A DNA stretch of 32,583 bases from Longimicrobium sp. (GTDB lineage Bacteria; Gemmatimonadota; Gemmatimonadetes; Longimicrobiales; Longimicrobiaceae), in assembly GCF_035474595.1 (NCBI RefSeq), contig NZ_DATIND010000087.1, positions 1 to 32,583 on the forward strand, in the 5' to 3' direction. The notes under the pieces were generated by a model that worked only from the letters and a program-made list of their open reading frames with translations, was not told where the DNA came from and did no database searches. The position numbers and the translations under genes are program-made. Below, one piece after another: positions 1,635 through 14,762 of the stretch. The stretch's first letter is position 1. Every line of letters begins with the position of its first letter.

Positions 1635-2956
1635 TCCTGAAGTGGACCCAGTGGGTCGACTGGCCCTGGTGGATCTCGGTCTTCTTCGTCCTGGGCGTGC
1701 TGGCCACCGTCTGGGCCTTCGCCACCCTGTTCCTGGCGATGGGGCGCCGCCCGCGCCGCCTGACCATCTACGACCGCCCGCCCGCCGGGTCGGCGCGCTT
1801 CCTGGAAAGCATCTCCGGGCTGCTGAACGAGCCGCTGCAGAGCGGCGGCACCGCCAAGTTGCTGAACAACGGCGACCAGATCTTCCCCGCCATCCTGCAG
1901 GCGCTCGGCGAGGCGCGCCGCACCATCAACTTCATGACCTACATCTGGGAGAAGGGGACGATCTCCGACCAGGTGCTGGAGGTGCTGGTGGAGCGGGCGA
2001 AGGCGGGAGTGAAGGTGCGGGTGATGCTGGACGGGATGGGCGCCTGGCGCGCGCCGCACAAGCAGTTCAAGGCGCTGGAGGCCGCGGGCGGGCGGGTGCG
2101 CTGGTTCAACCCCTTCCGCTTCGGCAAGCTCACCGCCTTCTACCGCCGCAACCACCGCCGGGCCATCGTGGTGGACGGGAAGGTGGCGTTCACCGGCGGC
2201 GCCTCGGTGGGCGACAAGTGGCTGGGGAACGCGCAGGACCGCGACCACTGGCGCGACATCATGATCGAGGTGCGCGGGTGCCTGGCGGTGAACCTCCAGA
2301 GCGCCTTCACGCAGCTGTGGGCCAACAGCACCGGCGAGATCCTGATCGGCGAGGACCACTTCCCCGGCACCGAGGAGGCCGGGACGGCGCCCGGCGCCGA
2401 GGGGATCTCGCGCCACATCACCGTCATCAGCTCGCCGGCCGAAGGGTCGCACCCGCTGCGGCTGTTCTACTGGACCACCCTGTCGTGCGCCCGGCAGAGC
2501 ATCCTCCTGACCTCGGCGTACTTCGTTCCCGACCGCGACATCCGCCGCGCGCTGGCCGAGCGGGCGCGCGCCGGGGTGGACGTGCGGCTGCTCCTTCCCA
2601 ACAAGTACACGGACGTGAAGATCGTCCGCCTGGCCGGCCACTTCTACTTCCGAGGGCTGCTGGAGGCGGGGGTCCGGATCTACGAGTACCAGACCACCAT
2701 GATGCACACCAAGGCGCTGGTAGTCGACGGCATCTGGGGCGTGGTGGGCTCGGCCAACATGGACATCCGCAGCAAGGAGCTGAACCAGGAGGCGGTGATC
2801 GGCGTGGCCGACCGCGGCTTCGCGACCGAGCTGACCGACACCTTCCACGCGGACCTGGCCCAGAGCACGGAGATCCGCCTGAAGGAGTGGAAGCGCCGCC
2901 CCATCCTCTCCCGCGCGCTGGAGCGCATCGTGGTGCTGTTCGAGGAGCAGTATTGA
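1631..2956 (+). CDS. Cardiolipin synthase-like phospholipase D family protein
   Basis: A 441-residue protein with an N-terminal membrane helix (about 10-36) and two PLD/HKD domains. The second motif is canonical: HTKALVVD (H359, K361, D366), followed by GSANMDIRS. The first reads HRRAIVVD (H175, R177, D182), so the usual lysine is arginine, followed by GGASVGDKW. Cardiolipin synthases of this type join two phosphatidylglycerols, or PG with PE, at the inner membrane; the anchor and length fit that family, but other phosphatidyl transfers are possible. The start ATG at 1631 overlaps the RDD gene stop, giving translational coupling. Lacks the two-helix N-terminus of ClsA and is nearer to ClsB-type enzymes in layout. 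Confidence 0.88.
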   Translation: MILKWTQWVDWPWWISVFFVLGVLATVWAFATLFLAMGRRPRRLTIYDRPPAGSARFLESISGLLNEPLQSGGTAKLLNNGDQIFPAILQALGEARRTINFMTYIWEKGTISDQVLEVLVERAKAGVKVRVMLDGMGAWRAPHKQFKALEAAGGRVRWFNPFRFGKLTAFYRRNHRRAIVVDGKVAFTGGASVGDKWLGNAQDRDHWRDIMIEVRGCLAVNLQSAFTQLWANSTGEILIGEDHFPGTEEAGTAPGAEGISRHITVISSPAEGSHPLRLFYWTTLSCARQSILLTSAYFVPDRDIRRALAERARAGVDVRLLLPNKYTDVKIVRLAGHFYFRGLLEAGVRIYEYQTTMMHTKALVVDGIWGVVGSANMDIRSKELNQEAVIGVADRGFATELTDTFHADLAQSTEIRLKEWKRRPILSRALERIVVLFEEQY

Positions 2957-3016
2957 GCCTGTGGCGTAACCATTGATCCGGCGGTGGCGGCTTTCACGCG
3001 CGGATAGTGAACGGCC

Positions 3017-3046
3017 TTGACAGTACCTCGGTTCGACTGGTAGATT
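3017..3046 (+). promoter_or_regulatory. Isolated sigma-70-like promoter
   Basis: TTGACA (perfect -35, 3017-3022), an 18-base spacer and TAGATT (3041-3046). No protein gene follows on this strand before the minus-strand gene at 3345-3917, so it may drive a small RNA ending at the hairpin at 3089-3112. Confidence 0.5.
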
Positions 3047-3052
3047 TACAGC

Positions 3053-3120
3053 ACTTAATCCCCCCGGCTTACTTCGGTGACCGGGCGCGAGGCCGTCCTT
3101 CGGGGCGGCCTCTGCTTGTT
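3053..3120 (+). ncRNA. Candidate small RNA
   Basis: The predicted transcript begins about 7 bases after the -10 box and runs into GAGGCCGTCC-TTCG-GGGCGGCCTC (3089-3112), a 10-bp stem with one G-U pair and a stable UUCG loop. A weak T-rich tail (TGCTTGTT) follows. An earlier CCCGG...CCGGG pairing (about 3063-3085) encloses a second TTCG. No known RNA family is recognised; existence is inferred from promoter plus terminator-like hairpin only. Confidence 0.3.
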
Positions 3121-3174
3121 ATGACAAATTCGAGGATCGATCGTGCCCGGCAGCGCACGTGCGACCTCGCTTAT

Positions 3175-3241
3175 AGATCCTTCGGCCTGCAACCGCTCGG
3201 TGCGGGGCAACTACGGTGTGGTCGGCCTCAGGATGACGTCT
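3175..3241. repeat. Palindromic intergenic repeat, copy 2
   Basis: Matches copy 1 at 124-191 over its whole length: AGATCCTTCGGCCTGCAA at the left end, CGGCCTCAGGATGACGTCT at the right end, a variable centre and the same orientation. Confidence 0.7.
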
Positions 3242-3344
3242 CCAGGTGATTGCCGGATCCAGTATTACCAGATCGCAAAACAGCAGAGCAGCAGAGAGAG
3301 AAACCGTCCGCTGCTCTGCTTCTCCGCGTGGCTCAAATCTCTTC

Positions 3345-3917
3345 CTACCCGATGCGCAGTTGCGACCATTGCCAGCCGAAGAAGACGAGGAGGAGCGCCA
3401 CGACGACGGAGTGGTACCCGCGCCTGCCGACGAACGCGAGCGAGGCCAGCAGCGCCGCGATGCAGAGCGTGGGGACCACGCGCAGGGGACCCGCGGAAAC
3501 GATCGCGTCGTCCGTCCCGGACACGTAGTCCACCGCCAGGGCCAGCAGGGTGAAGAGCGCGAACAGCAGCCAGAAGTAGCGGCGGTTCTCGTCGTAGTAG
3601 GCGGAAAGGTCCAGCCCCTCGTCGGGGATCACGTCCGGCAGCGCCGCCGAGGCCAGCAGGAACATGCTGACCAGCGCAGACGCGAGGATCAGGAAGCCCC
3701 AGTACCTCGTCCACACGGCGGCGTGCCCCATCTCGTAGAACTCCCACCAGAACTGGAGGATGAGGAGCAGGACCAGCAGCGCCGCCGCCAGCGGAAGCCA
3801 GTGCCACGCGATGCGGCTGCGGGCGCGGAGCAGGCGGTGCAGGCTGACGGACAGGTCGGCGATCGCGAGGCCGATGAGGATGGACACCATCAGCAGCAGG
3901 TACTCGAAGGGGCTCAC
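3345..3917 (-). CDS. Six-helix membrane protein of unknown function
   Basis: 190 residues with about six hydrophobic segments: near residues 5-28, 38-62, 70-95, 115-136, 143-163 and 168-188. Short loops contain few charged residues; no catalytic motif or known domain is recognised. The start is a GTG at 3917 (MSPFEYLLL...), with no clear ribosome-binding site, so an internal start near residue 10 is possible. It is transcribed away from the MerR/thioredoxin operon, from which it is separated by 264 bases. Codon composition matches its neighbours. Role unknown; an integral inner-membrane location is the only safe statement. Confidence 0.7.
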   Translation of the reverse strand: MSPFEYLLLMVSILIGLAIADLSVSLHRLLRARSRIAWHWLPLAAALLVLLLILQFWWEFYEMGHAAVWTRYWGFLILASALVSMFLLASAALPDVIPDEGLDLSAYYDENRRYFWLLFALFTLLALAVDYVSGTDDAIVSAGPLRVVPTLCIAALLASLAFVGRRGYHSVVVALLLVFFGWQWSQLRIG

Positions 3918-4974: not shown

Positions 4975-5012
4975 CGAACGGCGCCGCGCACCCGCGGCGC
5001 CGTTCGCTTTTT
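4975..5012 (+). terminator. Rho-independent terminator after trx
   Basis: Perfect 14-bp stem, CGAACGGCGCCGCG (4975-4988) with CGCGGCGCCGTTCG (4993-5006), a 4-base loop and then CTTTTT. It separates the merR-trx operon from the lanthipeptide operon. Confidence 0.9.
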
Positions 5013-5075: not shown

Positions 5076-5097
5076 TTTCGGCAGCAGCCTGCCGAAA
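5076..5097. promoter_or_regulatory. Inverted repeat upstream of the lanthipeptide operon
   Basis: TTTCGGCA (5076-5083) and TGCCGAAA (5090-5097) form a perfect 8-bp inverted repeat around a 6-base centre, about 93 bases before the first precursor. It has no T-run, so an operator is likelier than a terminator. The AT-richer stretch 5120-5135 next to it may hold the promoter, but no convincing -35/-10 pair was found. Confidence 0.35.
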
Positions 5098-5189: not shown

Positions 5190-5456
5190 ATGGGACCGCT
5201 CTACAACATGCTGGACCCGTTCGGCGGGCACGGGATGCCCGGCGACCCGATGGAGACCGTGCTGTCGCTGCAGACCATGTCCGACGCCGACGTCGCGGTG
5301 GTGGTCTATGACGACAACACCGACATCTGCCACCTGAACACCCTGCACACCAACAGCTGCTACACGGGCCAGTGCGACGGCATCGGCTCGACGGGAATCT
5401 GCAAGACGGGCAGCTGCAGCTACACCAAGGTGGCCGCGTCGCCCGGCTCGCTCTGA
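5190..5456 (+). CDS. Class III lanthipeptide precursor, peptide 1
   Basis: 88-residue ribosomal peptide precursor. The leader contains METVLSLQTM (residues 21-30), matching the hydrophobic-x-x-L-x-LQ helix that LanKC enzymes recognise, preceded by LDPFGG (8-13). The core is rich in Ser/Thr with five Cys (47, 57, 62, 71, 76), including TLHTNSC (51-57), which fits Ser/Thr-x2-Ser/Thr-x2-Cys spacing for a labionin-type ring, and STGIC and TGSC, which could give simple lanthionine rings. GGAGGA at 5180-5185 sets the ATG at 5190. It is first in the operon with LanKC and precursor 2. Class III cores are usually about 20-25 residues; this one is about twice that. Assignment rests on the shared leader and the adjacent synthetase. 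Confidence 0.85.
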   Translation: MGPLYNMLDPFGGHGMPGDPMETVLSLQTMSDADVAVVVYDDNTDICHLNTLHTNSCYTGQCDGIGSTGICKTGSCSYTKVAASPGSL

Positions 5457-5477
5457 GCCGCCGCCCCGGGCGGTGGG

Positions 5478-5505
5478 GCCGCCCAGCCGAAGGGCTGGAC
5501 GCGGC
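5478..5505 (+). other. Intercistronic hairpin between precursor 1 and LanKC
   Basis: GCCGC plus CCAGCC (5478-5488), loop GAAG, then GGCTGG (5493-5498), a 2-base bulge and GCGGC (5501-5505). There is no T-run. It could slow transcription or protect the upstream mRNA so that more precursor than synthetase is made, as is common in RiPP operons; this role is inferred. Confidence 0.45.
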
Positions 5506-5597
5506 TCCGCCGCCCGCGGGCCATCCGAACGCCCGGTCCTTCCGCCCCCGGCCTCCGCGCCGGAACGGCGGCCGCTCTTCCCGCGCAGCCCCCGCCC

Positions 5598-8411
5598 ATG
5601 GCCGACTACTCGACTTTCGTGCTCCTGGACCCCGAGTTCTTCGCGTCGCTCGACCAGCGGACGCCCGGGACGGAGTACCACGCGCGCGTCGCGTCGCTCC
5701 TCCCGGACGACTGGGAGATCGCCGCGCAGGGGGTGTGGACGTCGGTGCGACCCCCGCGGTGGGAGCACCTGCGGCAGGGGTGGAAGCTGCACGTGTCGGC
5801 CACGCCCGCCAACTCCGCCGACGTGCTGGAGCGCGTGGCGGCCGTGCTCGCACGCGACCCGGCCGCGTTCAAGTTCGCCTCCGACGCGGTGATGCTGAAC
5901 ATCCTCCTTTCCAAGAACTGGCCGCGCGAGGGCGGGGGAAAGTTCATCACCATCTATCCGTCGGGCGACGAGCAGTTCGGCCGGCTGGGCCGCGCGCTGG
6001 CCCAGGCCACGGCGGAGCTGGACGGGCCCTACATCCTTTCCGACCGCCGGGTTCCGGGAAGCCGCATCGTCTTCTACCGCTTCGGCGAGCACCTGGGCGG
6101 CGAAGAGGTGGACCCCGCGGGCACCCGCTCGCACCGGATCGCCACGCCGGGGGGCGGCACGGTGGTGGACGAGCGGCGGGGATACTACCAGATCCCGGAC
6201 GGGGTGGACGATCCCTTCGGCGCCCGGGCAGTGCGCGTGCTTCCCTCCGGCGCCGAGCCCGAGAACCGGGTGACGCTGAACGGCCGCTACCAGGTGCGCG
6301 GCGCGCTGAAGTATTCGAACGTGGGCGGGATGTACCACGCGTGGGACGTGGAGCGCGACCGCGCGGTGGTGCTCCGCGAGCGGCGCCCACTGACCGGGTG
6401 GATCGACGCCGGCACCGACGCCGTGGCGCTGCTGCGCAAGGAAGCGGAGATCCTGCGCCAGCTGCAGGGAAGCGGCCTGGCGCCGGAGCTGGTGGACCTG
6501 TTCCAGGTGTGGGAGCACCACTACCTGGTGATGGAGCACGTGGAGGGGACGCCGCTGCGCGACTACGCGGTGGCCCGGTACTTCGGCCGCGGCCGGATGG
6601 GAAGCCCGCGCCGCCTCTTCCAGGTGTTCCGGCAGCTGATCCGCGAGCTGGCCGGCGGGCTCGAAGAGTTCCACCGCCGCGGGATCGTGCTGCGCGACCT
6701 GTCGGTGGGCAACGTGCTGGTGCGCCCCGACCGCTCGGTGTGCTTCATCGACTTCGAGTACGCCTGGGAGCGGCGCGAGGCCGGCGTGTTCGCCCCGCGC
6801 GTGGAAACGCCGGGGTTCGCGTCACCCGCGCAAGCGGCGGGCGAGCCGCCGTGCGAGGCGGACGACTTCTACTCGCTGGGCGCGGTGGTGCTGGAGCTGT
6901 GCTCCATGCTGGCGCCCGGCGTGGGGCTGAATCGCGCGGGCGTGCTCGACGCCGCGCGGCTGGCGATGGACGAGATCGGCCTTCCCCCCGAGCTGCTGGA
7001 CGTCGCACGCGGCCTGCTGGAGCCGGACGCCGCCGCGCGCTGGAACGCCGGCGACGTGCGCCGCGCGCTGGACGGCGTCCGCGCTTCGGCCGTCCCGTGG
7101 GCCTGCCGCGAGCCGGGGCGCCTCCGCCCGCCGCCCCCCGTCCGCGCGGGGACCGAGGCCGAGGCCGCCGTCGCCGCGGAGGGCGTGTGCCGGTTCCTGG
7201 AGGCCAGCGCCGACACCTCGAACGCCGACGGCTTGTGGCCCGCCTCGCCCGACACGTACCGCACCAACCCCCTCTCCATCCGCTTCGGCGCCTGCGGCCC
7301 CATCGAGCAGGTGCGGCGGGCGCGGAGCAAGGTCCCGGACGCGTGGCTGGACTGGGTGGAGCAACGCGCCACGCCGGAGCGCTGCCCGCCGGGGCTCTTC
7401 GCCGGCCTTGCCGGCGTGGCGCTGACGCTGGCCGCCTGCGGGCGCGCGGAGGCCGCGCGCCGCGTGCTGGGCCAGGCGCTCGCGGCGCCGCTCCCCGCCG
7501 GGCACCATGCGCTGTACGACGGCACCGCCGGGCTGGGGATCGCCGCGCTGGCGCTGGGGAACGAGCTGGACGACGCGGAGCTGCGCGCCCACGCCGAGCG
7601 CATCGGGGGGGAGATGGAGACGCGGGCCGAGAGGCGCCGGCACGGCGTGGCGTGGCGGGGCGCGGACGGACGCATTCCCTGCGGGCTGGCGAACGGGGGG
7701 AGCGGGATCGGCCTCTTCTACACCTACCTGGGCGCCGCCACCGGCGACGTGCGCTGGTGGGACCTGGCCTCGCGCGCCCTGGCGTTCGAGCTGTCGCAGG
7801 TGACGCCCGACGCGGGGTACGCCTTCTGGCCGCTGCTGGGGGGAACGCGGCGCCGGCCGTACCGCTCGCCGCACGTGTACTTCGGCACGGCGGGGGTGGC
7901 GACGGCCGTGGTGCGCCTCCTGGCCTGCACGGGAGATCCGGAGCTGCGCGCGTGGACCGGCGAGTGCGCCCGCACCCTCAGCTTCCGCTGGACCAACAAG
8001 CTGTGGCAGGACATGGGGCTGGCGGGATGGGGCGAGACGCTGCTGGACATCCACGCGGTGACGGGCGACCCCGGGTACCGCGCGGACGCGCTGCGCGTGG
8101 CCGAGGGTCTGCTGCCGTTCCAGGTGCGCACGCGCTTCGGCACGGCGTTCCCCGGCGGCGCGCTGAACCGCGTGTCCAGCGAGTTCGGGATGGGGGCCTC
8201 GGGGATCGGGCTTTTCCTGCACCGGCTGGTGCACGGCGGCCACCGCGCCTTCTTCCCCGACCACCTCCTCCCCGGCTTCCCCGCGTCCGCGCCACTGGCG
8301 GGCGCGCCCGCATCGGCCGCCGTAGTTCCGGGGCCGGAGGCGGGCTCCGGACGCGCGAGGCCGGCGGCCGCGCGGCGCCGCGTCCGCGTGGGCATCGCGG
8401 CGGGCGCCTGA
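5598..8411 (+). CDS. lanKC: Class III lanthionine synthetase LanKC
   Basis: 937-residue trifunctional enzyme that phosphorylates Ser/Thr of the precursor, eliminates phosphate and cyclises with Cys. Residues about 1-215 form the lyase part; about 230-500 a Ser/Thr-kinase-like domain with the catalytic loop LRDLSVGNVLV (D367, N372) and the metal-binding DFE (D385-E387) in place of DFG; about 520-900 a LanC-like cyclase with glycine motifs (NGGSGIG near 700, YFGTAG near 762, GASGIGLF near the end). The Cys-Cys-His zinc ligands of LanC are not visible, as expected for class III. The ATG at 5598 lies 141 bases after precursor 1, with a weak ribosome site. The last 40 residues are Ala/Arg-rich. 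It is flanked by precursors on both sides; no transporter or leader protease is adjacent. Confidence 0.95.
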   Translation: MADYSTFVLLDPEFFASLDQRTPGTEYHARVASLLPDDWEIAAQGVWTSVRPPRWEHLRQGWKLHVSATPANSADVLERVAAVLARDPAAFKFASDAVMLNILLSKNWPREGGGKFITIYPSGDEQFGRLGRALAQATAELDGPYILSDRRVPGSRIVFYRFGEHLGGEEVDPAGTRSHRIATPGGGTVVDERRGYYQIPDGVDDPFGARAVRVLPSGAEPENRVTLNGRYQVRGALKYSNVGGMYHAWDVERDRAVVLRERRPLTGWIDAGTDAVALLRKEAEILRQLQGSGLAPELVDLFQVWEHHYLVMEHVEGTPLRDYAVARYFGRGRMGSPRRLFQVFRQLIRELAGGLEEFHRRGIVLRDLSVGNVLVRPDRSVCFIDFEYAWERREAGVFAPRVETPGFASPAQAAGEPPCEADDFYSLGAVVLELCSMLAPGVGLNRAGVLDAARLAMDEIGLPPELLDVARGLLEPDAAARWNAGDVRRALDGVRASAVPWACREPGRLRPPPPVRAGTEAEAAVAAEGVCRFLEASADTSNADGLWPASPDTYRTNPLSIRFGACGPIEQVRRARSKVPDAWLDWVEQRATPERCPPGLFAGLAGVALTLAACGRAEAARRVLGQALAAPLPAGHHALYDGTAGLGIAALALGNELDDAELRAHAERIGGEMETRAERRRHGVAWRGADGRIPCGLANGGSGIGLFYTYLGAATGDVRWWDLASRALAFELSQVTPDAGYAFWPLLGGTRRRPYRSPHVYFGTAGVATAVVRLLACTGDPELRAWTGECARTLSFRWTNKLWQDMGLAGWGETLLDIHAVTGDPGYRADALRVAEGLLPFQVRTRFGTAFPGGALNRVSSEFGMGASGIGLFLHRLVHGGHRAFFPDHLLPGFPASAPLAGAPASAAVVPGPEAGSGRARPAAARRRVRVGIAAGA

Positions 8412-8416
8412 TCCTT

Positions 8417-8433
8417 CGCGGATGGGCTCCGCG
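8417..8433 (+). other. Small hairpin between LanKC and precursor 2
   Basis: CGCGGA (8417-8422), loop TGGGC and TCCGCG (8428-8433) make a short perfect stem just after the LanKC stop. Too short and lacking T residues to be a confident terminator. Confidence 0.3.
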
Positions 8434-8489
8434 CATCGCAGCCGTCCGCGCGGGCGTCCCATCCATCCCCCCTTCATGGAGAGCCGTCG

Positions 8490-8714
8490 ATGCGAACCGC
8501 CTTCATCCTCCACGATCCTCACGGCGCCGATCCCGCCTCGATCGACACGGTGCTGTCGCTGCAGACCTTCGCCGAGGCCTCCATCCAGCCGCCGGTAAGC
8601 CAGACGGAGGTCTGCCAGACGGTGGGGGCTCCGTGCGAGCCCGGATACACCCATGACGCCGCCGCGAGCACCTGCACGGTCTGCCTTTCCACGCAGCCGC
8701 CGATCCAGGTGTAG
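8490..8714 (+). CDS. Class III lanthipeptide precursor, peptide 2
   Basis: 74-residue precursor downstream of LanKC. Its leader has SIDTVLSLQTF (residues 17-27), nearly the same as in peptide 1 (TVLSLQT is identical), after HDPHG (8-12), which parallels LDPFG there. The core differs completely: four Cys (42, 49, 62, 65), with SQTEVC (37-42), TVGAPC (44-49) and STCTVC (60-65), and a proline-rich end. The cores of the two peptides therefore probably give different products from one synthetase. GGAG lies about 9 bases before the ATG. The gene ends 16 bases from the convergent AraC-type regulator. Smaller than typical annotation cut-offs, but the leader match makes it secure. Confidence 0.85.
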   Translation: MRTAFILHDPHGADPASIDTVLSLQTFAEASIQPPVSQTEVCQTVGAPCEPGYTHDAAASTCTVCLSTQPPIQV

Positions 8715-8730: not shown

Positions 8731-9486
8731 CTACGCGCGGTTCTGGAACCAGCGGTGCAGCAGCGGCTCGGCGCCCAGCAGCTCGCGCACCTGCCCGGGC
8801 GAGAGCCCGAACACGCGCCGGAACTGCTGGCTCATGTTGGCCACGGTGAGCATCCCCAGCCGCTCCGAGAGCAGGTGCAGCGGCTCGGTGCTGTTGCGCT
8901 GCACGAAGAAGGCAACGTGCAGCGCGTGCGCCAGCGCCAGCCACGCGCGCGGGTTGGGCAGCCCCATCTGCTGCAGACGGCTGCGCCAGGTGCGCGCGGC
9001 CACCTGCCGGTTCAGCGACAGCCGCTCCAGCGTGCGCACGTCGGGCGCGGCGTCCAGCAGCTCGCGCACGTCGTCCTGCTCCACCCCCGGCGGCAGGTAG
9101 CCGGCGTCCGAGGCCCAGCGCAGCACGAACGAGCTCAGATCCAGCGGATGGGTGAGCTGCGCGCGCAGCACGTCGGGGTCCGGCGCGTCGCCGCCCAGGA
9201 TGGCGCGGACCTGGGCACCCGCGGCGCTCCGCGCCGCGTCGGCCACCACCTGCAGCGGAGCCTCGGCGATCCATACGGCCACCGGCGAGCCCGGATGCCG
9301 CGCGCGCAGCTCGCGCACGTGCACCGGGAGCTGGCGCACCTCGGCACCGGGGTCGCTGTCGCCGGGAAGGCTGATCAGGCGCAGGAGCAGCACCTCGCTC
9401 CCGGCCGTACGCGGGCCGGCCGGCGCCAGGAACTCGCCGACGGACTCACGGAGGAAGGGTGAACTCCACTTGGCGACGGAAAGCAT
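8731..9486 (-). CDS. AraC-type DNA-binding regulator
   Basis: 251 residues. The C-terminal part (about 150-245) is an AraC/XylS-type double helix-turn-helix: SLNRQVAARTWRSRLQQMGL for the first and LGMLTVANMSQQFRRVFGLS for the second, followed by PGQVRELLG. The N-terminal 140 residues are not recognised; they do not look like the usual cupin sensor, and include VRELRARHPGSPVAVW, which resembles a receiver-like strand pattern. It converges on the lanthipeptide operon, so a role in its control is plausible but unproven. The ATG at 9486 follows a good promoter (9520-9547) with a short leader. Confidence 0.8.
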   Translation of the reverse strand: MLSVAKWSSPFLRESVGEFLAPAGPRTAGSEVLLLRLISLPGDSDPGAEVRQLPVHVRELRARHPGSPVAVWIAEAPLQVVADAARSAAGAQVRAILGGDAPDPDVLRAQLTHPLDLSSFVLRWASDAGYLPPGVEQDDVRELLDAAPDVRTLERLSLNRQVAARTWRSRLQQMGLPNPRAWLALAHALHVAFFVQRNSTEPLHLLSERLGMLTVANMSQQFRRVFGLSPGQVRELLGAEPLLHRWFQNRA

Positions 9487-10965: not shown

Positions 10966-11610
10966 TCACCTTCCGCGCGCCACCACCACGTCGGCCCGCG
11001 AGCGCGGCAGCACCTCGAGCGTCTGGTCGTACTGGCCGCTGAAGCCGGTGATGGTGACGCGCGTGCCGGGGCGGATCGCGCGGAAATCGAAATCGCCAGC
11101 GCCCGCGGGGAAGAAGATCTGCACCGCGCCCGATCCGTCGTCGATGCGCAGCTTGTGGCCGTACGGCGCGTCGTTCGTCACCGAATCCACCGCCGTCCCG
11201 CGCACCGTCACCAGCCGCCCCTCCGTCCGCTCGCCCACGGACGAGGCGCGCACGCGCCGCGGCCGGGGCACGCGCCCGTGGCCGATCCGCCGGATGCCGG
11301 GCGACACCAGCGTGAGCAGGCCGTGGCTGCTCGCGAGCGTCCCCGTCACCCGCATCCGCGCGCCGGTGCGCAGGTGCTGCGTGCTGTCGGCCACCCAGAT
11401 GCCGCCGGTGGCGTCCTGGATGGCGAACCCCGCGTCGATCACGCCGGAGGGCACCGTCACGATCCCCTCCACCGTCACCTCGCGGCCGGCCGCAAAGGTG
11501 CGCGCGCGGGCGATGGTGTAGGTGAGCGGCGGCCGTGCGGCGCGCTCCGGTGGCGCCAGCGCGGCGCAGGCGAGGGCGATGGCCGCGCAGGCGGCGAGCT
11601 TCACGTGCAT
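10966..11610 (-). CDS. Secreted protein with OB-fold-like domains
   Basis: 214 residues. A Sec signal peptide (about 1-22, MHVKLAACAAIALACAALA) is followed by two similar OB-fold-like segments: TVEGIVTVPSGVIDAGFAIQ...GARMRVTGTL (about 45-105) and VTVRGTAVDSV...GSGAVQIFF...GTRVTITGF (about 130-195). This build resembles the OB repeats of secreted nucleases and DUF5689-like proteins, but no catalytic domain is present. Its ATG shares one base with the stop of the upstream gene (TGATG at 11608-11612), so translation is probably coupled. Exported to the periplasm or surface; ligand unknown. Confidence 0.75.
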   Translation of the reverse strand: MHVKLAACAAIALACAALAPPERAARPPLTYTIARARTFAAGREVTVEGIVTVPSGVIDAGFAIQDATGGIWVADSTQHLRTGARMRVTGTLASSHGLLTLVSPGIRRIGHGRVPRPRRVRASSVGERTEGRLVTVRGTAVDSVTNDAPYGHKLRIDDGSGAVQIFFPAGAGDFDFRAIRPGTRVTITGFSGQYDQTLEVLPRSRADVVVARGR

Positions 11611-12137
11611 CAATCCCCCCTCGGTTCCGGAACGAACGGGATCAACCCGGCTGCGTGCATCTCCTCCTGGAGTTCCCGGGGCAGATCGCGGGCGTCCACG
11701 ATCATCCCGTTCGACAGCTCGAAAAGCCACGTGAGCGGGCTCTCCTCCACCAGCTTCCGGAGGCTCCAGCGCGAGTCGAAGTAACCGATCTTCAACATCT
11801 TGCGAATGTCGGCCGCCTTGGTCGAGGCGGTGCCCTGGCTCACCTCCATCAGCCGGCAGAGCTCGCGTGCCTCCAGGAAGGGCTGGTTGCCGGGGTCGAA
11901 GAGGAAGTTGATCTGCCCGAGCGCGTACACGATCGCCGCGGCCCAGCTCCTCGCGCGTCCGCCGGCCAGCGGAGACGGACGCTTGCGGCTGAGCACCGCG
12001 GCCATCTCCCTCGCCAGCGCGGCGTACTCGGCATCGAGGTGCGCCGCGGCGAAGGCGTCGGTGACGGCGACGATTTCGTCGTACCTCGCCCGCATCTTCT
12101 GCGGCACCTTCAGATCTTCGGAGTCGTGGGAAGCCAT
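11610..12137 (-). CDS. DUF6398-like protein with possible helix-turn-helix
   Basis: 175 residues, cytoplasmic. The first 100 residues are helical (VPQKMRARYDEIVAVTDAFA, then ALGQINFLFDPGNQPFLEA), resembling DUF6398 as I remember that family. A helix-turn-helix-like stretch follows (MEVSQGTASTKAADIRKML, about 108-126). The C-terminal segment (about 127-175) includes SNGMIVDARDLPRELQEEMH. Function unknown; DNA binding is only a possibility. Start at 12137 (MASHDSED...), diverging from hrpB with 117 bases between. The following OB-fold gene overlaps its stop codon, making these two a unit although one product is exported and the other not. Confidence 0.72.
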   Translation of the reverse strand: MASHDSEDLKVPQKMRARYDEIVAVTDAFAAAHLDAEYAALAREMAAVLSRKRPSPLAGGRARSWAAAIVYALGQINFLFDPGNQPFLEARELCRLMEVSQGTASTKAADIRKMLKIGYFDSRWSLRKLVEESPLTWLFELSNGMIVDARDLPRELQEEMHAAGLIPFVPEPRGD

Positions 12138-12254
12138 GGCCGGAATGCTGGGGGGATTCGGAAACCCGGAGAAGAATACAGAATGCGTGTTTCCGGCCCG
12201 CCGCGCGAGGGGTGAGGTGGAACGCACGCGCCCGGCGTGCGATATTGGGCCGCG

Positions 12255-14762
12255 ATGAGTCCTCTCCCCGATACCGCCCTGCCGATCGAGCCCGTGCTCC
12301 CCGCGCTGCGCGAAGCCCTGCGCGCGGGGACGGCCGCCGTGCTGCAGGCGCCCCCCGGCGCGGGGAAAACCACGCTCGTCCCCCTGACGCTGCTGGACGA
12401 GCCGTGGCTGGGCGGGCGGAAGATCGTGATGCTGGAGCCGCGCCGCCTGGCCGCGCGCGCCGCCGCGAACCGGATGGCGCAGCTGCGGGGCGAGCGCGTG
12501 GGCGCGACGGTGGGCTACCGCGTGCGGATGGAGACGCGGGTGGGCCCATCGACGCGCATCGAAGTGGTCACCGAGGGCGTGCTCACGCGGATGCTGCAGC
12601 ACGACCCGGCGCTGGAGGGGGTGGGGATCGTCGTCTTCGACGAGTTCCACGAGCGCTCGCTGCACGCCGACCTGGGCCTCGCCCTCACCCTCCAGTCGCG
12701 CGCCGTGCTCCGCGACGACCTGCGCGTGCTGGTGATGTCGGCCACGCTGGACGGCGGCCCCGTCGCGCGGCTGCTGGGGGATGCGCCGGTCGTCACCAGC
12801 GAGGGGCGCGCCTATCCGGTGGAGACGCGCTGGCTCGCGCGGCGGCCGGAGGGGCGCATCGAAGCCGTCACCGCGCGCGCGGTCCGCGACGCGCTGGAGA
12901 CGGAGGAGGGCGACGTGCTCGTCTTCCTCCCCGGCGCGGGGGAGATCCGGCGGGTGGAGGAGATGCTGGCGGCGGACGGGCTTCCGCGCGGTGTCCGCAT
13001 CCACCCGCTCTTCGGCAACCTGCCGCAGGAGGCGCAGGACGACGCCATCCGCCCCTCCCCGCCCGGCTGGCGAAAGATCGTGCTGGCGACGTCGATCGCG
13101 GAGACGAGTTTGACGATCGAGGGCGTGCGCGTGGTGGTCGATTCGGGGCTGATGCGCGTTCCCCGCTTCTCGCCGCGCACCGGGATGACGCGGCTGGAGA
13201 CGGTCGCCGTGTCGCGCGCGTCGGCCGACCAGCGGCGCGGGCGCGCCGGACGCTTGGGCCCCGGCGTCTGCCGGCGGCTGTGGACAGAGGCGGAAGACGC
13301 GGCGCTGCAGCCGTTTCGCCCGCCCGAGATCCTGGAGGCGGACCTGGCGCCGCTCGCGCTGGAGCTGGCGGCGTGGGGCGTGGCCGATCCGGCCGAGCTG
13401 CAGTGGCTGGATCCGCCGCCCGCCGCGGCCTTCGCGCAGGCGCGCGAGCTCCTGCGCGAGCTGGGCGCGCTGGACGCCGCCGGCGCCGCGACGCCGCACG
13501 GCCGGGCGATGGCGGCGCTCCCGCTGCACCCCCGCCTCGCGCACATGCTGCTGCGCGCGAAGGAGATGCGGCTCGGCGCGACGGCGTGCGACCTCGCGGC
13601 GCTGCTGGCCGAGCGCGACGTCCTGCGCGGGGAGGGACGCGCGGCGGACGCGGACGCGCGGCTGCGCCTGGCCGCGCTCCGGCGCGAGGGCGGCACCGGC
13701 GGCCACGGCGTGGACCCCGCGGCGCTGCACCGCGTCCGCGCCGAGGCGAAAGATCTCCGCCGCCACCTCGCCGCATCCCCCGCCGACGCGGACGACGAGG
13801 CGGCGGGCGTGCTGCTCGCGCTGGCGTATCCGGATCGCATCGCGCAGCGGCGGCCGGGCGCGGCTGGGCGGTATCTCCTCCGCAACGGCCGCGGCGCCGC
13901 CTTTCCGCATCCCCAATCCCTTTCCGAATCCCCGTACCTCGTCGCCGCGGAGCTGGACGACGCGGGGCGCGAGGGGCGCATCCTGATCGCCGCCCCGGTG
14001 GAGATGGCCGAGATCGAGCGCCACTTCGCGGACCAGATCGCCACCGAGGAGTCGGTAGCGTGGGACGATGCGGCCGGCGCCGTGCGCGCGCGGCGGATCG
14101 AACGCCTCGGCGCGATCGTCCTCCGCGAGGCGCCGCTGGCGGAGCCGGATCCCGGGCGCATCGCCGCCGCGCTGGCGGACGCGGTGCGGCAGGCGGGGAT
14201 CGCGTCGCTGCCGTGGACGAAGGCGTCGGCGCAGCTGCGAGAGCGCATCGCCTTCCTGCATCTCCACGACCCGTCGTTCCCCGACGTGTCGGACGGGGCG
14301 CTGCTGGAGACGCTGGGCGATTGGTTGGGGCCGCGCCTGTACGGGCTGCGGAAGATGGACGAGGTGCGGCGGATCGACCTGGCGCCGGTGCTGGAGGGGA
14401 TGCTGGCGTGGGAGCAGCGCCGGCGGCTGGACGAGCTGGCGCCGACGCACGTGGAGGTGCCCAGCGGCTCGCGCATCGCGATCGACTACACGGACGCGGC
14501 GGCGCCGGTGCTGGCGGTGCGGCTGCAGGAGGTGTTCGGGTGGACCGAGACGCCGCGGATCGCGGGCGGGCGCGTGCCGCTGACGCTGCACCTGCTGTCG
14601 CCCGCGCGGCGGCCCGTTCAGGTCACGCGCGACCTGGCCAGCTTCTGGCGAACGGGCTACTTCGAGGTGAAGAAAGATCTGAAGGGCCGGTATCCCAAGC
14701 ACTACTGGCCCGACGACCCGCTCGTCGCCGAGGCCACCGCGCGTGCCAGGCCGCGGCGGTGA
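12255..14762 (+). CDS. hrpB: ATP-dependent helicase HrpB
   Basis: 835-residue DEAH/RHA-type helicase. Walker A APPGAGKTT has K38; the Walker B is DEFH (129-132), the HrpB form of DEAH, followed by ERSLHADLG; motif III is SATL; motif VI is QRRGRAGRLGPG. The ratchet and OB-like region follow, and the C-terminal HrpB signature is clear (FEVKKDLKGRYPKHYWPDDP, near 800-820). Length agrees with the family (about 810-840). HrpB acts on nucleic acid in the cytoplasm and its exact role is poorly defined in most bacteria. I chose ATG 12255 (MSPLPDTALP), where family similarity begins; an in-frame GTG at 12237 is the alternative. Closed by the hairpin at 14768-14818. Confidence 0.95.
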   Translation: MSPLPDTALPIEPVLPALREALRAGTAAVLQAPPGAGKTTLVPLTLLDEPWLGGRKIVMLEPRRLAARAAANRMAQLRGERVGATVGYRVRMETRVGPSTRIEVVTEGVLTRMLQHDPALEGVGIVVFDEFHERSLHADLGLALTLQSRAVLRDDLRVLVMSATLDGGPVARLLGDAPVVTSEGRAYPVETRWLARRPEGRIEAVTARAVRDALETEEGDVLVFLPGAGEIRRVEEMLAADGLPRGVRIHPLFGNLPQEAQDDAIRPSPPGWRKIVLATSIAETSLTIEGVRVVVDSGLMRVPRFSPRTGMTRLETVAVSRASADQRRGRAGRLGPGVCRRLWTEAEDAALQPFRPPEILEADLAPLALELAAWGVADPAELQWLDPPPAAAFAQARELLRELGALDAAGAATPHGRAMAALPLHPRLAHMLLRAKEMRLGATACDLAALLAERDVLRGEGRAADADARLRLAALRREGGTGGHGVDPAALHRVRAEAKDLRRHLAASPADADDEAAGVLLALAYPDRIAQRRPGAAGRYLLRNGRGAAFPHPQSLSESPYLVAAELDDAGREGRILIAAPVEMAEIERHFADQIATEESVAWDDAAGAVRARRIERLGAIVLREAPLAEPDPGRIAAALADAVRQAGIASLPWTKASAQLRERIAFLHLHDPSFPDVSDGALLETLGDWLGPRLYGLRKMDEVRRIDLAPVLEGMLAWEQRRRLDELAPTHVEVPSGSRIAIDYTDAAAPVLAVRLQEVFGWTETPRIAGGRVPLTLHLLSPARRPVQVTRDLASFWRTGYFEVKKDLKGRYPKHYWPDDPLVAEATARARPRR

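Follow-up and report, generated by a model that had tools for sequence, protein, structure and literature searches.

Phosphorylation, removal of the phosphate and cyclisation by cysteine are the established chemistry of class III lanthipeptide synthetases. The prochlorosin and SyncM systems of class II resemble the locus described here in that peptides with a shared leader and unrelated cores are served by one synthetase, but they rely on a LanM enzyme with many precursors, whereas the present locus is of class III and has two. In the labyrinthopeptin cluster (labA1/labA2 with one LabKC), as here, one class III synthetase is accompanied by two precursors for different products; its two cores share one ring plan and the cluster has transporters, whereas the cores reported here are not alignable and have no linked transporter. 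Labyrinthopeptins A1 and A2, which come from one LanKC, act synergistically (PMC10676316). The Thur/andalusicin system (ThurKC with ThurA1-A7) is similar in its LxLQ leader, its leader-groove residues, its several precursors and its lack of a clustered protease (PMC10604976), but has seven near-identical precursors and a methyltransferase, in contrast to two unlike precursors and no tailoring enzyme. As 57% of class III precursors stand alone in their cluster according to a large survey (PMC7268733), several precursors per cluster are common, and in other class III systems leaders are removed by unclustered M1 and M16 peptidases (PMC8960859; PMC10885120). Characterised class III products come from Actinobacteria, Firmicutes and Myxobacteria (PMC12328550); the literature searched contained none from Gemmatimonadota and no paper on class III clusters in Longimicrobium. 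Since neither multiple precursors for one LanKC nor proteases encoded outside the cluster are rare in class III, the system is less exceptional than an earlier note on this DNA implied. The kind of system is already known, and what is added here is the degree of mismatch between the cores, a cluster-private regulator with its palindrome, and a difference in the exporter.

The window, i.e. the whole stretch of DNA that was analysed (32,583 nucleotides), is the complete contig C87 of a draft genome of 6.57 Mb in 163 contigs, obtained from a soil bacterium of the Gemmatimonadota. Its features of interest are listed in Table 1. The arrangement given in the earlier note, with two precursors flanking one LanKC, is borne out by translation of the three frames, all of which lie on the same strand; the AraC-like gene and the palindrome were absent from that note and are added here. 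The main reading is a compact class III lanthipeptide operon in the order precursor 1 (P1), LanKC, precursor 2 (P2), as part of the full mechanism proposed below, to which a probability of roughly 0.77 is given. A Shine-Dalgarno-like GGAG precedes both precursor genes, while the start codon of LanKC is uncertain as it has no clear ribosome-binding site.

Table 1. Coordinates of the class III lanthipeptide locus and its flanking elements in the window
Feature	Position	Strand	Remarks
Terminator-like hairpin, 14 pairs then CTTTTT	4975..5012	+	3' of the preceding thioredoxin gene
Palindrome TTTCGGCAGCAGCCTGCCGAAA, candidate operator	5076..5097	.	about 93 bp before precursor 1
Precursor 1 (P1, LanA1), 88 aa, begins MGPLYNMLDPFGGHGMPGDPMETVLSLQTM, TVLSLQT leader, core with five Cys	5190..5456	+	
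Hairpin of very high stability in the gap from precursor 1 to LanKC	5464..5520	+	-55.9 kcal/mol, z -4.4
LanKC (class III lanthionine synthetase), 937 aa, with RamC_N lyase, kinase and zinc-free LanC-like cyclase	5598..8411	+	
Precursor 2 (P2, LanA2), 74 aa, begins MRTAFILHDPHGADPASIDTVLSLQTF, same leader motif, unrelated four-Cys core	8490..8714	+	
AraC-like regulator, convergent with the operon	8731..9486	-	HTH_18 E 1.3e-4 (below Pfam cut-off); AraC-family C-terminus

The leaders connect the two precursors to each other and to the enzyme. Both carry TVLSLQT and, as noted earlier, a DPxG element (DPFG in P1, DPHG in P2). In the 6.57 Mb genome, a degenerate DNA pattern for TVLSLQT matches twice and no more, each time beside LanKC, while its reversed control matches nowhere, and the codon block itself is identical at 20 of 21 bases between the two genes. 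LxLQ is a motif of class III precursors (PMC7268733), and ThurKC reads the leader residues M(-22), V(-19), L(-18), L(-16) and Q(-15) (PMC10604976). P1 agrees at all five at identical spacing (M, V, L, L, Q) and P2 at all but the first, which is Ile (I, V, L, L, Q), so that both leaders fit M/I(-22)xxV(-19)L(-18)xL(-16)Q(-15). When 88 LanKC-type sequences are aligned together with ThurKC, the leader-groove contacts R112, Y148, Y243, E258 and W302 are identical to those of ThurKC, and F236 and F306 are replaced by Tyr (roles of the groove and lyase residues from PMC10604976). As the register matches in both precursors, both should dock in one LanKC groove, and judging by the conserved contacts the helical V-L-S-L-Q leader common to the two would enter the groove that lies between lyase and kinase. 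Since both leaders fit the recognised register and LanKC keeps the main leader contacts, the best reading of the sequences is one enzyme acting on both peptides, and we infer that LanKC modifies the two of them. A DPF-like extension before the motif recurs in sister precursors of the family, namely in G224 (LNPFDNGIPGDP) and G379 (FDPFAEN). The leader of P1 has a homologue in the precursor of G224 (55% over residues 5-33; E 1.8e-5), and G224 is the only place elsewhere in the family where a relative of P1 was found.

The leader is all that the two precursors have in common, as had been proposed: the leader alignment reaches z 6.7, whereas the parts that follow give z 1.5 (p 0.08) and are not alignable, and the cores differ in length (precursors of 88 and 74 aa), cysteine number (five vs four) and sequence. 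The 19 precursor pairs from 13 other loci with at least two precursors can all be aligned beyond the motif (z 5.0 to 28), which makes the pair in the window the most mismatched of a comparison set that is modest in size and pattern-selected. The nearest arrangement is that of Streptacidiphilus jeojiense (L089), where LanKC is likewise flanked by a precursor on either side, with a shared leader, but where the post-leader parts can still be aligned (42%, z 5.0). At a LanKC locus of candidate division WOR-3 (L095:5162-5842), the long leader MKKVLRLQKVNDKKGGKPRP is almost the same in three small genes, whose cores differ and have a single Cys each. The ring motif S/T-x2-S/T-x2-5-C, which is typical of class III though not universal, occurs twice in P1 and is missing from P2. 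This could mean that P1 is the sole working substrate and P2 a recent or decaying copy with a core that has drifted beyond recognition, and it would agree with the lack of a P2 homologue in the relatives examined, whereas the P1 leader has one in G224, where no P2-like gene was found in the 0.4 kb between LanKC and the regulator. P2, however, keeps its TVLSLQT codon block and ribosome-binding site, its frame is intact, its four cysteines are in place and its third-position GC is coding-like (0.88, with 0.97 in P1), so this explanation is an unlikely one. The combination of one operon, one enzyme and two unlike cores, together with the synergy of the labyrinthopeptins, has also led us to consider a two-part product with joint activity, an idea that is compatible with the main mechanism but that we hold to be improbable, as no such unlike pair exists in the sister clusters, with one recognisable precursor each in G224 and G400 and three similar ones in G379.

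For the synthetase, the reading of two substrates modified by one class III enzyme agrees with domain content and with most of the residues compared. LanKC contains the Pfam domains RamC_N, Pkinase and LANC_like, passes the NCBI class III profile NF038151 (613.5 bits, cut-off 575) as the earlier class assignment would predict, and has ThurKC as its best relative by sequence in the PDB (8sao, E 2.9e-54; also 8sap and 8sam). All eight ThurKC lyase residues (K65, H67, K94, K108, K117, D152, R163, R191) are retained in the alignment. In the kinase, E279 and DFE are retained, while the position of the ThurKC beta3 lysine K257 is taken by Arg260 (window 6375-6377), a naturally occurring exchange at a position where the residue is normally essential; kinase activity with Arg260 is assumed here. 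As K257A in ThurKC gave degraded peptide (PMC10604976), the arginine might be thought to leave the enzyme inactive and the cluster a relic, but every LanKC found in the family shares it, as do three from Actinobacteria (L041, L043, L045) with intact precursors, and the other catalytic residues checked as well as all four palindromes are conserved, which makes decay of this kind very improbable. An identity as class IV synthetase (LanL) is hardly credible, for the score of 567.1 bits against the class IV profile, near the class III score as it is, falls below the cut-off of 650, and the zinc-ligand positions of the cyclase hold Y, D and M instead of the C, C and H of class IV-like sequences in the alignment. 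In the proposed mechanism, the kinase of LanKC would phosphorylate Ser/Thr of each core, the lyase domain would remove the phosphate, and the zinc-free cyclase would join Cys to the dehydro residues, yielding two different lanthionine- or labionin-bearing peptides.

Variations of this architecture are found elsewhere. In two other Gemmatimonadota genera a lyase-kinase protein is separate from a LanC-like cyclase (L021:7432-9066 and 11610-12947; L022:1240-2721 and 2718-3917, with the cyclase gene first in L022), LxLQ-type small ORFs are located nearby, and the separate cyclases also seem to be devoid of zinc ligands. At L019:8567-12946 a full LanKC is followed by a stand-alone LanC-like protein with CHG-type zinc motifs and then by a glycosyltransferase-like gene, and G224 encodes, besides its LanKC, a class IV-like synthetase whose zinc motifs are FWCHG and LCHG (L023:8705-11878). 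LanKC matches occur in 8 of 395 genomes of the phylum, and full-length relatives in 4 of the 21 family genomes: G000, G224 (59%), G379 (44%) and G400 (42%). Among 80 named LanKC loci, 37 have at least one candidate precursor and 12 have two or more, as counted by a simple pattern on the LanKC strand within 3 kb, a few matches of which are clearly false.

The family clusters share a candidate control element. In each of the four family genomes with a LanKC, a palindrome with the consensus WTCGGCA-N6-YGCCGAAA precedes the first gene of the cluster, and it occurs nowhere else in the 21 genomes; as the pattern was drawn from a comparison of the four upstream regions, its presence there is by construction, and the independent evidence is its absence elsewhere together with a shuffle test. 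In this open search for dyads with gaps of 3-12, the conserved dyad had a total mismatch of 1, while the best of 2000 Markov shuffles reached 9 and none was as good (0/2000). The window has a single site, which is matched once on each strand, and at LanKC loci outside the family the core dyad had no match. The regulator lies under the gathering score of HTH_18, which its G379 homologue passes (37 against 33.6); a profile match to AdpA (6.1e-5) was obtained, whereas Foldseek matches to MarA and AraT reached only E 0.2-0.4. Its best family homologues (43% or more) are found exactly in the four LanKC genomes, 0.4 to 5 kb downstream of LanKC and convergent with it, and the other genomes have at most 36%, with the 43% line set after the result was known and the four genomes being related. 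This co-occurrence suggests that the AraC-like protein probably binds the palindrome and thereby controls transcription of the operon. In the structural model of the regulator, the N-terminal domain is of alpha/beta type and gives weak Foldseek matches of receiver type (PorX, RcsB), which would make the protein a possible fusion of a pseudo-receiver with an AraC helix-turn-helix.

Terminator-like sites number two in the search against 0.9 expected, and the one at 4975-5012 closes the preceding gene and sets the upstream edge of the unit, with transcription predicted to start between it and position 5190. Stable stems recur at the same position after the precursor in the window (z -4.4), in G224 (z -3.3) and in G400 (z -2.4). 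The hairpin at 5464-5520 is likely an attenuator or a stem that protects the mRNA, and would probably make P1 more abundant than the enzyme.

Export and leader removal are probably provided from beyond the locus. The statement that no transporter or leader peptidase is adjacent can be extended to the entire 32.6 kb contig, on which neither was found and 13 ABC transporter queries had no match. The sister cluster of the same genus (G400; L038/L039, AVDCRST_MAG68, 42%) is comparable in its LanKC, AraC-like regulator, palindrome and hairpin after the precursor, but it has one recognisable precursor and, directly 3' of LanKC, an ABC exporter followed by a MacB/FtsX-type permease and then the regulator; in the window, P2 thus occupies the place of the exporter. 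As the genome encodes ten ABC_membrane proteins and the sister's exporter stands in the place of P2, export from elsewhere in the genome is a reasonable assumption. No single exporter in trans could be picked, as the sister's exporter resembles three ABC proteins of the genome to much the same degree (41, 39 and 40%), and the same applies to a single leader peptidase, where 12 M1 and 12 M16 matches are too many to choose from. Ten of the M16 matches form five adjacent pairs (contigs C65, C121, C141, C52 and C22); in Bacillus and Paenibacillus, pairs of this type cleave off class III leaders. In the mechanism as proposed, unlinked host metallopeptidases would remove the leader and an ABC exporter would export the products.

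A more far-reaching interpretation, offered tentatively and with rather more doubt than belief, is that Gemmatimonadota have in this locus a class III equivalent of the prochlorosins, in which a relaxed LanKC would read the shared leader only and place rings on unrelated cores, one of them without the usual ring motif, and in which the only copy of the operator in the genome would let a cluster-private regulator switch the system. With two naturally paired cores that resist alignment, one LanKC would offer a clean test of how far leader binding by itself governs ring formation in class III. The single conserved palindrome would likewise offer direct access to the conditions under which such a cryptic cluster is turned on.
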